From Candidatus Termititenax sp. (GTDB lineage Bacteria > Margulisbacteria > Riflemargulisbacteria > GWF2-35-9 > DYQY01): DNA of 7,223 nucleotides. Below the pieces are notes generated by a model, which was not told where the DNA came from, made no database searches, and was given only the letters and a program-made list of their open reading frames with translations. This document shows positions 2,371-7,222 of the stretch, piece after piece; position 1 is the first letter of the stretch, and each line of letters opens with the position of its first letter. The translations under genes and the position numbers were made by a program. The stretch spans positions 1 through 7,223 of the forward strand of contig DYQY01000029.1 of assembly GCA_020719045.1 (NCBI GenBank). The letters are read 5' to 3'.

Positions 2371-2517
2371 GTATGCTAATCTTATAATACTGAATGCTTG
2401 AAAGGGTAACCCCCTATCTCTCTTTCTCTTTCAAGTAAATTAAAAAACTTTGGTTTCCAACACACACCCTTACCTCAGTAAATATAAATGATATAATTAG
2501 CCTAAAAAAGGCTAATT
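2371..2517 (+). other. Spacer between terminase and portal: C-rich, G-poor, with inverted repeat
   Basis: This 147-base gap interrupts an otherwise tightly packed gene row. No open frame of useful length is seen. It holds a TATAAT at 2383-2388 with no nearby gene start. An 8-bp perfect inverted repeat follows (CTTGAAAG 2397-2404, CTTTCAAG 2428-2435, 23-base loop), then a near-unbroken pyrimidine run at 2410-2432 with a single A. By hand count 2407-2480 has 23 C and 4 G on the + strand. No U-tract follows the repeat, so it is not a classical intrinsic terminator. C-rich, G-poor RNA is the usual composition of Rho loading sites, so Rho-dependent attenuation after the terminase genes is plausible but unproven. 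Confidence 0.4.
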
Positions 2518-2518
2518 A
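2489..2518 (+). promoter_or_regulatory. Portal promoter nested in a perfect 10-bp inverted repeat
   Basis: An extended -10 element, TGA-TATAAT (2489-2497), lies 26 bases upstream of the portal ATG. It overlaps a perfect inverted repeat, TAATTAGCCT (2494-2503) and AGGCTAATTA (2509-2518), with a five-A loop (2504-2508). The right arm includes the GG of the ribosome site and ends on the A of the start codon. RNA reading through from upstream could fold and hide the ribosome site. RNA started from this promoter would begin near 2503-2505 and lack the left arm. The same palindrome could instead be an operator for a DNA-binding regulator. Confidence 0.55.
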
Positions 2519-3714
2519 TGTTTTCAAATTTTTTTAAACGAGCAAAAGAGTTAATCCCAACAAATTATTCTATCGCAAGTATATATGCTCCTGTCAGTGG
2601 TTTATCCCAAACAGTTAATGATACAACAGCTATGAAATTTACCACTATTTACTCTTGTGTTAAAATACTTTCTGAATCTGTAGCTACATTACCTCTTAAT
2701 TTATATCAAGAAAAAGGTACTAGAAGAGAGAAACTAGACAATAAACTGACAAGACTTTTAGCTAGACCTAATGCTTTCACAACAGATTTTGATTTTAAAT
2801 CTTCTATTATGATTGATTTAGGTTTAAGAGGTAACTCTTACTGGCAAATTATACGAAATGGTTTAGGGGAAGTAAAAACACTCTATCAATTAAACTCAAA
2901 TTCAATCTCAGCAAAAATCAGACCAAATGGGGATATAGTTTATACTTATATAAGTGAAACTTTTGGTGAAGTACTTTTAGAATCTAACGAAGTACTACAT
3001 TTTAAAATGATGTCTATTGATGGTATCAATGGTATCAGTCCTATATCTTACAACCAAATGGCAATAGCAGCAGGTATGAGCCAACTTGAATATGTTGATA
3101 AGTTCTATGCAAATGGAGCAAATTCAAATGTTGTCTTATCTCATCCAGCAATCTTAAATGATGAAGCATATGAAAGACTCAAAACAAGTTTTAAAAATCA
3201 ATATGTTGGAGTTAAAAATTCACATAAACCTATCTTACTTGAAGATGGAATGAAGATAGAAAAGCTTTCTGTTAGTAACACTGATTCTCAATTTATTGAG
3301 AATAGAATATATACTAAGAATGAAATAGCATCTATTTATAGAATTGCACCACATATGATAAATGAAATGTCCAATGCTACATTTAGTAACATTGAACATC
3401 AATCACTAGAATTTGTCAAATACACTTTAATGCCTTATCTTGTAATGATTGAAAGTGAATTAAATGAAAAGTTAATCCTTAGCAACAGACAATATTTCAA
3501 ATATGATACTAACGCTTTAGTTAGAGGAGATATTAAAACAAGATATGAAGCATACCAACTTGCAATCACTAATGGTTTCCTAAGTAGGAATGAAGTTAGA
3601 AAAATGGAAGACTTAGATTCAATTGACGGTTTAGATGAGATGCTAACACCTATGAATATGAGTCAAGTAACTCAAGATGGACAAGATGTTGCAGGAAAAA
3701 AATTAACACAATAA
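2518..3714 (+). CDS. Phage portal protein, HK97 family
   Basis: Forms the ring at one capsid vertex through which DNA enters and to which the tail joins; it also docks the terminase. The 398-residue protein follows the Phage_portal (PF04860) pattern: YSCVKILSESVATLPLNLY (45-63) near the N-terminus, a LLARPNAF segment (80-87), LGLRGNSYWQII (101-112), VLHFKMMSIDGINGISPI (159-176), and IYRIAPHMI (273-281) followed by the helical stem/wing segment through about 320. The C-terminal ITNGFLSRNEVRKME (350-364) is also characteristic. Length is close to other HK97-type portals, and no truncation is seen. The start at 2518 has A-rich AAGG about six bases upstream. Translation may depend on which transcript carries it, because the upstream palindrome can cover the ribosome site. 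The protease gene follows after 33 bases, the normal partner order. Confidence 0.95.
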   Translation: MFSNFFKRAKELIPTNYSIASIYAPVSGLSQTVNDTTAMKFTTIYSCVKILSESVATLPLNLYQEKGTRREKLDNKLTRLLARPNAFTTDFDFKSSIMIDLGLRGNSYWQIIRNGLGEVKTLYQLNSNSISAKIRPNGDIVYTYISETFGEVLLESNEVLHFKMMSIDGINGISPISYNQMAIAAGMSQLEYVDKFYANGANSNVVLSHPAILNDEAYERLKTSFKNQYVGVKNSHKPILLEDGMKIEKLSVSNTDSQFIENRIYTKNEIASIYRIAPHMINEMSNATFSNIEHQSLEFVKYTLMPYLVMIESELNEKLILSNRQYFKYDTNALVRGDIKTRYEAYQLAITNGFLSRNEVRKMEDLDSIDGLDEMLTPMNMSQVTQDGQDVAGKKLTQ

Positions 3715-3747: not shown

Positions 3748-4425
3748 ATGAAAAACAAAATTACTATAGAAGATTTAGCAAAAGTCACAACCCATAAAAG
3801 AAATTATCAACTGGCAGTTGATAATGGTAATACTGACAATGCAATTAACCTATCTGAGCGAACAATCTGGTTCACTGCAGTATCTGACGATAACAAAGGG
3901 TTAAGAGAAACTTGGTCAGGTGTTAAATATATTGAGGAAATTGATGTTGCTACTATTAATGTAGATAATTGGAAACTTTTTGTAAAAGACCATAATCCTT
4001 CTACAGACAATGTCATAGGTCGAATTGTTGAGACTTTAAAAGAAGAAGGTAAGCTAAAAGCCAAAGTAAGGTTTAGTGAAACTGCTTCTGATGTTTTTCA
4101 AAAATACCACGAAGGTATTTTAACTGATGTTAGTATTGGTTATAGATATGACTTAAATGATGCAACTATTATAGATGATGAGATACCTTTAGTACTACTC
4201 AGAAATGTAGAAATATTTGAATTATCTTCTGTTTGGCAAGGTTTTGATTCTGGTGCTAAGCTAGGTAGAGAAGCTGAAGCTAAAGTTGATGATGCTGTAC
4301 TGCCAACTTTGGAGTTGGAGGAAGGGGCAGTAGAATGTGGCTGGGATGCCTTTTTAGTAGCAGAGAGAATAAAATTGATGCGAAGAAATCTTAAATTAAA
4401 AATAAAAACAGGAGATTTAATATGA
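3748..4425 (+). CDS. HK97-type prohead maturation protease
   Basis: Serine protease of the S78/U35 (PF04586) family that is packaged inside the prohead, cleaves the scaffold domain off the capsid protein, then degrades itself. In the 225-residue product, LFVKDHNPSTDNVIGRIVE (77-95) carries the expected catalytic His (H82). LTDVSIGYR (125-133) carries the nucleophile Ser (S129), and LRNVEIFELSSVW (151-163) is the conserved strand usually read as LxEVSLV. The usual proline-rich PANP segment after it is replaced by QGFDSGA (164-170). Residues 171-225 form a charged tail with a Lys/Arg-rich end. The start at 3748 has the strong site AAGGAAGG seven bases or so upstream. The stop overlaps the capsid start by four bases (ATGA), so the two are translationally coupled as enzyme and substrate. 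Confidence 0.93.
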   Translation: MKNKITIEDLAKVTTHKRNYQLAVDNGNTDNAINLSERTIWFTAVSDDNKGLRETWSGVKYIEEIDVATINVDNWKLFVKDHNPSTDNVIGRIVETLKEEGKLKAKVRFSETASDVFQKYHEGILTDVSIGYRYDLNDATIIDDEIPLVLLRNVEIFELSSVWQGFDSGAKLGREAEAKVDDAVLPTLELEEGAVECGWDAFLVAERIKLMRRNLKLKIKTGDLI

Positions 4426-6154: not shown

Positions 6155-6607
6155 ATGGCAGTAACTCCAGCAGTAGCTAGAAAAGCTCAAGGTACTACAA
6201 TCAGTATCTCTTCAAATGTAACAACACCAGTATATACAGTTATCAAAAATGTAACTACTATTGATGGTATTCAAGGCGGTTCAGCTTCAGATATTGAAGT
6301 AACAAACCTATCAAGTGTAGCTAAAGAATTTGTAACTGGTCTTATTGACAATGGTGAAATCTCTTTAAATGTTAAATATGATTATGCAGATGCAGGACAA
6401 GGTATAGTTCAAACAGCTCTAACTAATAGTGCATTATGTATATTTAAAGTAGCTTTACCTGTTGCAGCAGGTGAAACAACAGGAGCTTCTTTTACTTTCC
6501 AAGGGACACCTAAAACATTTAGTAAATCTATTGGTGTAGATGGTGTGATTGAAAGTTCAATCTCAATTAAAGTAAGTGGTTCTGTTACAATAACAGCAGC
6601 AGCTTAG
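6155..6607 (+). CDS. Phage major tail tube protein
   Basis: Subunit whose hexameric rings stack to form the tail tube through which DNA passes. The 150-residue protein is almost all predicted beta strand, rich in Thr, Ser, Val and Ala, with few aromatics. It has the typical tube-protein outline: an early strand TTISISSN (14-21) then VYTVIKNVTTIDGIQGG (26-42), the hallmark SDIEVTNLSSVAKEFVTGLID (45-65) with the EVT-L-S pattern followed by a G-L-x-D turn, GEISLNVKYD (67-76), and a C-terminal SSISIKVSGSVTIT (134-147). It resembles lambda gpV N-domain-type and Phage_TTP families. No Ig-like C-terminal extension is present, so this is a minimal form. The ribosome site AAAGGA is seven bases or so upstream. 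It ends with tandem stops, TAGTAA (6605-6610). High copy number is expected, and the tail sheath gene one would expect in a myovirus is not seen nearby. Confidence 0.88.
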   Translation: MAVTPAVARKAQGTTISISSNVTTPVYTVIKNVTTIDGIQGGSASDIEVTNLSSVAKEFVTGLIDNGEISLNVKYDYADAGQGIVQTALTNSALCIFKVALPVAAGETTGASFTFQGTPKTFSKSIGVDGVIESSISIKVSGSVTITAAA

Positions 6608-6612
6608 TAACT

Positions 6613-6634
6613 TAAGGAGGAGGCTTCCTCCTTA
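6613..6634 (+). repeat. Perfect hairpin after the tail tube gene
   Basis: TAAGGAGGA (6613-6621) pairs exactly with TCCTCCTTA (6626-6634) around the tetraloop GGCT, a 9-bp stem. It follows the tail tube stop by five bases. The next bases are TGCTATAATTCT, not a U-tract, so intrinsic termination is weak at best. The left arm is a perfect Shine-Dalgarno sequence locked by its own complement, and no gene starts at a suitable distance. It may protect the 3' end of tail tube RNA or attenuate read-through to the connector gene. Confidence 0.5.
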
Positions 6635-6643
6635 TGCTATAAT
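6635..6643 (+). promoter_or_regulatory. Extended -10 promoter of the connector gene
   Basis: TGC-TATAAT starts one base after the hairpin and its TATAAT lies 27 bases upstream of the connector start codon. Initiation near 6650 would give a leader of about 15 bases with ribosome site AAGGA at 6653-6657. No -35 box is visible; the expected -35 position falls inside the hairpin. The layout matches the portal and small terminase promoters in spacing and in the TGN element. Confidence 0.55.
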
Positions 6644-6664
6644 TCTAATAAAAAGGAATTTATA

Positions 6665-7222
6665 GTGAGAAAGGTTACAGTACAACCAACAAATCTCCCA
6701 ATAACATTAGCAACAGCAAAAGATATTGCACGAATAGAACACGATTATGATGATGCTTTATTAAACACAATGATTAAATCAGCTTGTAAGACTGCTGAAT
6801 CCTTTACTGGTATTCAATTAACTACAGGTACTTTTATTGAAGCTTTACCTTATTTTGCAACACAAATAAACCTACTCTCCCCTTTACAATCAGTTACATC
6901 AGTTAAATATTATGATGAGTATAATATTCAACAAACAGTTGAATCTTCAAATTATAGAATATACACTTTTGGCAAAGCCCACTACATTGAATTTGATGAA
7001 AATTATTCATTCCCTGCTGTATATAATAGAAGTGATGCAGTACAAATCACATTTATATCTGGATATATAACTACACCTGAAGATATAGCTTCTTGGATAG
7101 CAATTAGAGTGGTAACACTTTATGAGAATAGAGAAGAATTTGTGAGTGGATATGGTACACTATCAAAAATTGATGAGAAATACTTAAATCAGTTTTTATA
7201 TCCTTATAAAATTTTTAAATAG
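6665..7222 (+). CDS. Head-tail connector protein, gp6-like (Phage_connect_1 type)
   Basis: Forms a ring beneath the portal that seals the filled head and receives the tail. The 185-residue product fits the HK97 gp6/PF05135 pattern well: ITLATAKDIARIEHDYDDALL (13-33) matches the usual LaeAK.hLRv..dddda.l opening, then IKSACKTAESFTGIQL (37-52), LSPLQSVTSVKYYDEYN (71-87) matching L..PL.sVtSVkYyD..g, AVQITFISGY (125-134) matching aVrvtf.aGy, and a C-terminal helix WIAIRVVTLYENREEF (144-159) with the YENRE signature. A GTG start at 6665 is chosen because AAGGA lies seven bases upstream and the homologous region begins a few residues later. The gene is complete, its stop being one base from the window end. 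Its place after the tail tube gene is unusual; in most HK97-like modules it directly follows the capsid gene. Confidence 0.92.
   Translation: MRKVTVQPTNLPITLATAKDIARIEHDYDDALLNTMIKSACKTAESFTGIQLTTGTFIEALPYFATQINLLSPLQSVTSVKYYDEYNIQQTVESSNYRIYTFGKAHYIEFDENYSFPAVYNRSDAVQITFISGYITTPEDIASWIAIRVVTLYENREEFVSGYGTLSKIDEKYLNQFLYPYKIFK

Follow-up and report, generated by a model that had tools for sequence, protein, structure and literature searches.

Control of the portal gene by the point at which its RNA begins, after the fashion of gene e of phage T4, is the reading that we hold, with moderate confidence, for the start of this gene in a tailed-phage gene cluster; it is based on predicted RNA folding and on the placement of a promoter. 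RNA reading through from the terminase gene would keep both arms of an inverted repeat, so that the ribosome site and start codon of the portal gene would fold into a hairpin of 11-14 bp, and portal would be poorly translated from such RNA. In contrast, RNA from a promoter located inside the left arm would start at approximately 2502-2506, lack that arm and leave AAAAAAGG and the AUG unpaired. The likely effect would be that the dose of portal is tied to the local promoter and insulated from read-through, rather than that a terminase-versus-head timetable is set.

Gene cluster and local promoter

The window analyzed here is an entire contig (C10) of 7223 bases from a 1.75-Mb metagenome assembly. 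It carries a cluster of tailed-phage head and tail genes, namely, an unnamed first gene (start at 176), the terminase large subunit gene (754-2370), an HK97-type portal gene on the plus strand (2518-3714; Pfam PF04860, E value of 2e-101), a head protease-like gene (start at 3748), an HK97-type capsid gene (start at 4422), a tail tube gene (start at 6155), and a connector gene that begins with a GTG codon at 6665. The terminase and portal genes are separated on the plus strand by a gap of 147 nt (2371-2517), and a terminator scan called no intrinsic terminator on this strand between them. The terminase stop is therefore too far upstream for translational coupling, and ribosomes translating terminase would not open a stem at the portal start. 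A search against Rfam yielded nothing notable, with a single sub-threshold match located elsewhere. The gap also harbors a second stable hairpin with a long loop (CTTGAAAGGG...CTTTCAAG, 2383-2436) and a TATAAT at 2384; in the near-identical strain L004 this TATAAT reads TATCAT, and the C-run of the hairpin loop differs as well.

Upstream of the portal gene, we identified an extended −10 element, ATGATATAATT (2488-2498, plus strand, with TATAAT at 2492-2497), from the placement of the motif and its likeness to the gnTAnaAT element of Campylobacter, which it fits. The sigma70 element of Campylobacter jejuni is gnTAnaAT, is located 4-8 nt before the transcription start and is not accompanied by a −35 element, and the ribosome site of this species is aAGGa (PMC3847290). 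Applied to the portal leader, this spacing places the predicted start of the local RNA at 2502-2506 on the plus strand, at the border between the left arm and the loop of the repeat. The TATAATT motif occurs four times on the plus strand (152, 2492, 3722, and 6638), each time 18-21 nt before a gene start, and the same layout thus precedes the first gene and the portal, protease and connector genes. The longer form ATGnTATAATT is found three times on the plus strand (148, 2488, and 6634), again 18-21 nt before gene starts, and never on the minus strand. When followed by AAGG, it occurs three times in the 7-kb contig and a single time in the 1.75 Mb that make up the rest of the assembly. Furthermore, the viral contig L034, whose DNA is 89% identical, retains TATAATT at both later genes that it covers. 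Collectively, these motifs make the portal promoter a well-supported prediction.

The preliminary description had suggested that the local promoter separates terminase from the head genes in time. This suggestion found no support in the sequence, since the first gene at 176 carries a promoter motif of the same kind and no difference between early and late classes is visible; a single class of promoter seems to serve the two blocks. A more modest role, and likely the better reading, is to shield portal dose from read-through, and should the portal promoter be of the ordinary constitutive sort, insulation would be all that the switch provides.

The style of this contig (ATGnTATAATT, AAAAAGG) is almost missing in the remainder of the assembly. 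Judged from its promoter and ribosome-site style and from a terminase whose nearest named relatives are in CJIE4, the contig may stem from a phage with a different host and have been mis-binned; tetranucleotide usage does not decide its membership in the assembly.

An inverted repeat over the portal start and its predicted folding

The portal start is covered by a perfect 11-bp inverted repeat on the plus strand, whose left arm ATAATTAGCCT (2493-2503), the anti-ribosome-site strand, is separated by the loop AAAAA (2504-2508) from the right arm AGGCTAATTAT (2509-2519). The repeat had been noticed before as a perfect 10-bp one (2494-2503 and 2509-2518) with a loop of five A residues; it is present and 1 bp longer. 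It spans bases 2 to 6 of the TATAAT box, the AGG of the Shine-Dalgarno region AAAAAAGG (2504-2511, plus strand, composed of the loop and the beginning of the right arm), and the A and U of the portal ATG (2518-2520). Coverage of the −10 box, the ribosome site and the ATG was thus correctly recognized; however, not just the end of the −10 box is involved, as most of it is located inside the left arm, and two bases of the ATG, not one, are included. The outer six pairs of the stem join TATAATT with the AATTATG context of the start codon, and the inner pairs are TAGCCT/AGGCTA.

The main rival to control by the RNA start point is that the palindrome serves as a DNA operator: a repressor or activator acting as a dimer would occupy 2493-2519, over the −10 box and the start site, and regulate the portal promoter. 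The perfect dyad, centered about two bases past the predicted transcription start, is where a repressor site is usually placed. Nevertheless, the site is a single copy: the window contains no second copy of the dyad with up to three mismatches and neither does the whole assembly, whereas a regulon would repeat the same site at other promoters, and the other promoters of this phage have different dyads or none. In addition, the borders of the arms coincide with RNA landmarks (start site, ribosome site and AUG), a match that an operator would not require. We therefore consider an operator unlikely.

The folding predictions fit control by the RNA start point. All folding energies and opening costs given here were predicted for 37°C in the absence of proteins, and opening was computed for positions 2505-2520. 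RNA covering 2485-2535 was predicted to fold with −16.0 kcal/mol (z score of −4.6), with AGG and the AU of the AUG within the stem, whereas in locally started RNA (2504-2560) the hairpin was not formed. Opening the ribosome site was predicted to cost 15.9 kcal/mol in the read-through RNA versus about 1.4 in the local RNA. When the 5′ end was moved base by base, the cost stayed at ~16 up to 2490, then fell steadily and was at most 1.6 from 2501 onward. The ribosome site would thus be hidden in the read-through RNA only, as had been anticipated. Of the transcript-dependent switch as originally proposed, the structural logic stands as a model with moderate support from the extended −10 element, the predicted start at 2502-2506, the drop in cost at this place and values like those of T4 gene e; the timing role is not supported.

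Chance, other sites and relatives of the leader

We compared the repeat with several kinds of randomized sequence. Stems of at least 11 bp with loops of 3-8 nt occurred 0.03 times per dinucleotide-shuffled window, and of the shuffled versions of the 147-nt intergenic region, 0.17% held a stem of at least 10 bp. When TATAAT and the start region were kept and the other upstream letters were shuffled, hiding of the ribosome site as strong as that observed was reached in 1 of 2000 cases, and in 0 of 600 in a second set. Among 58 viral leaders with the TATAATT-AAAAAGG-ATG layout and an open frame, the highest opening cost was 9.7 kcal/mol (mean of 4.1, standard deviation of 2.2) compared with 15.9 for the portal; because none of them exceeded 9.7, the layout alone does not cause the hiding. 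The pairing in the portal leader is clearly not a by-product of AT-richness. It should be noted that the portal site was picked from many screened windows, so these single-site P values are no proof and do not by themselves dismiss an isolated chance event.

A coincidence would mean that two AT-rich motifs, the −10 box (TATAATT) and the AATTATG start context, happen to pair. The outer six pairs do link these two common motifs, the weaker version at the connector gene is not unusual against shuffles, and two other Campylobacterota phages exhibit no general excess of hidden starts (see below for both). However, a coincidence leaves the inner TAGCCT/AGGCTA pairs unexplained, and the single success in 2000 shuffles that kept both motifs and the 0 of 58 matched leaders speak against it as well. 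It appears distinctly improbable to us.

Elsewhere in the phage, a weaker case with the same layout was found at the connector gene, where GCTATAATTC and GAATTTATAG surround AAAAAGG (6634-6667, plus strand). This leader was predicted to fold with −7.2 kcal/mol, and its opening cost decreased from 8.9 to 2.5 as the RNA 5′ end passed the −10 box; the corresponding values in L034 were 8.5 and 2.6. Hiding of this strength was reached in 70 of 600 shuffles that preserved the −10 box. The ribosome site of the protease gene is free. With a free site there and a weak case at the connector gene, the portal leader is an outlier and not one of a uniform series.

Further features were noted in passing. 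Right after the tail tube stop and directly upstream of the connector promoter, there is a hairpin, AAGGAGGA GGCT TCCTCCTT (6608-6639), which in L034 (~3555-3585) is kept via a paired deletion of a left-arm A and its partner, a right-arm T (AAGGGGA/TCCCCTT). From this pattern the stem looks selected, and it perhaps forms a transcript end. Between its portal and protease genes, L034 carries about 45 extra bases (614-664), with AAAAAAGTGTGTTTTTT immediately before the promoter that follows. Finally, L034 has not retained a perfect inverted repeat of 10-11 bp (AATTATCAACTG and CAGTTGATAAT, 3802-3825) that is present inside the protease-like gene of the contig.

Relatives of the portal leader were sought by searching viral contigs with the portal, terminase, capsid and portal N terminus, by one genome-contig scan, in 74 genomes of the assembly's phylum, and with two DNA patterns. 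The leader was present only in near-identical strains, represented by two IMG/VR contigs (L004/L033 and L005) that are ~99.6% identical to the window and in which it is unchanged. Neither the viral-contig searches nor the 74 genomes yielded a diverged relative with this leader. L034 begins within the portal gene and so is without the leader, and farther portal relatives have proteins of ~30-40% identity and DNA that is not alignable over the leader. One contig (L112) matched the pattern of promoter plus portal start and was rejected as a relative, its sequence being unlike a portal start.

Lastly, the hairpin could have another role in the transcript, as a pause, an attenuator, a weak bidirectional terminator, or a site for a translational repressor such as portal itself; a weak terminator-like site was called on the minus strand at the hairpin, and in Helicobacter phages the portal ribosome site is hidden by a hairpin that is conserved and covaries, with a promoter not clearly in the same place, yet neither strand has a T-run of usual strength after the stem, no minus-strand gene ends there and terminator-like calls in the window are not above those in shuffles, which makes this role very unlikely, lower in our estimate than either alternative above.

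Comparison with known systems

As a control, the opening-cost computation was run on CJIE4-1 and KHP30, two phages from the group presumed to contain the host (Campylobacterota), and revealed no general excess of hidden starts in them (3-6% of genes at a P value of 0.05). In the Helicobacter phage KHP30, the most strongly hidden start is that of portal. We aligned this leader across twelve Helicobacter schmidviruses of the KHP30 group (L116, 16356-16430; L117-L126; L130). The portal leaders of these phages form a two-part hairpin, in which a GCCU/AGGC stem over the ribosome site AAGGC is combined with an apical hairpin with paired changes. Over the 12 phages, 98.1% of the cells pair and both sides are changed in 10 cells; the score for covariation was 0.281 versus 0.136 in shuffles and at most 0.04 when slid. 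The two-sided changes are those of the apical part, whereas in the stem over the ribosome site variation is one-sided. A strictly conserved TAACCCTT precedes the hairpin.

In both the schmidviruses and our contig, the portal ribosome site is predicted to pair with an upstream strand (AAGGC with GCCUU in the former), and the host phylum is probably the same. The portals themselves differ, as that of the schmidviruses belongs to P22_portal (PF16510) and that of the contig to PF04860; moreover, the schmidvirus stem is longer and two-part, and its promoter is not clearly inside the stem, unlike in the contig. As the alignment shows, a portal leader in phages of this kind can hold a hairpin under selection; this does not demonstrate selection on the hairpin of the contig. 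It seems quite unlikely to us, although conceivable, that phages of Campylobacterota separately evolved hairpins that throttle portal, the HK97-type by a promoter in the stem and the P22-type of the Helicobacter schmidviruses by a covarying two-part stem. If they did, portal dose would be a recurrent target of leader-RNA control. Portal is needed as a single ring per head.

Among named phages, the CJIE4 prophages of Campylobacter come closest in terminase (43% identity), and their portal belongs to the same family as that of the contig. In contrast to the contig, their portal start is not hidden, and an annotated MazF-like gene (L110, 3041-3475) is located between terminase and portal, where the contig has its 147-nt gap.

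The closest parallel to the proposed control by the RNA start point is gene e (lysozyme) of T4, whose long RNA gives about 100-fold less lysozyme (PMC3014915). Its plan is common to soc, 49, I-TevI, segB and mobE of Aeh1 (PMC3014915, PMC2988022), thus including homing genes of T4 and Aeh1 (PMC2988022). By the same computation, opening of the gene e site costs 16.3 in the long RNA versus 4.5 in the short one, nearly equal to the predicted portal values of 15.9 and 1.4, in line with the likeness noted in the preliminary description. Two features of the type are predicted for the portal leader: the Shine-Dalgarno sequence and AUG are sequestered in a stable stem of the long RNA, and the promoter is placed over the 5′ arm such that its RNA, from the predicted start site, lacks this arm. 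However, gene e relies on a T4 late promoter that requires gp55, whereas the portal leader has a sigma70-like extended −10 element. Furthermore, portal is a head gene of an HK97-type cluster rather than a lysis or homing gene. If the proposed control is real, the principle of T4 gene e, that the start point of an RNA decides its translation, would extend to portal and to a head-gene cluster that is unrelated and uses sigma70-like promoters; some 27 bases would then suffice for a phage to shield the dose of an assembly protein from read-through.
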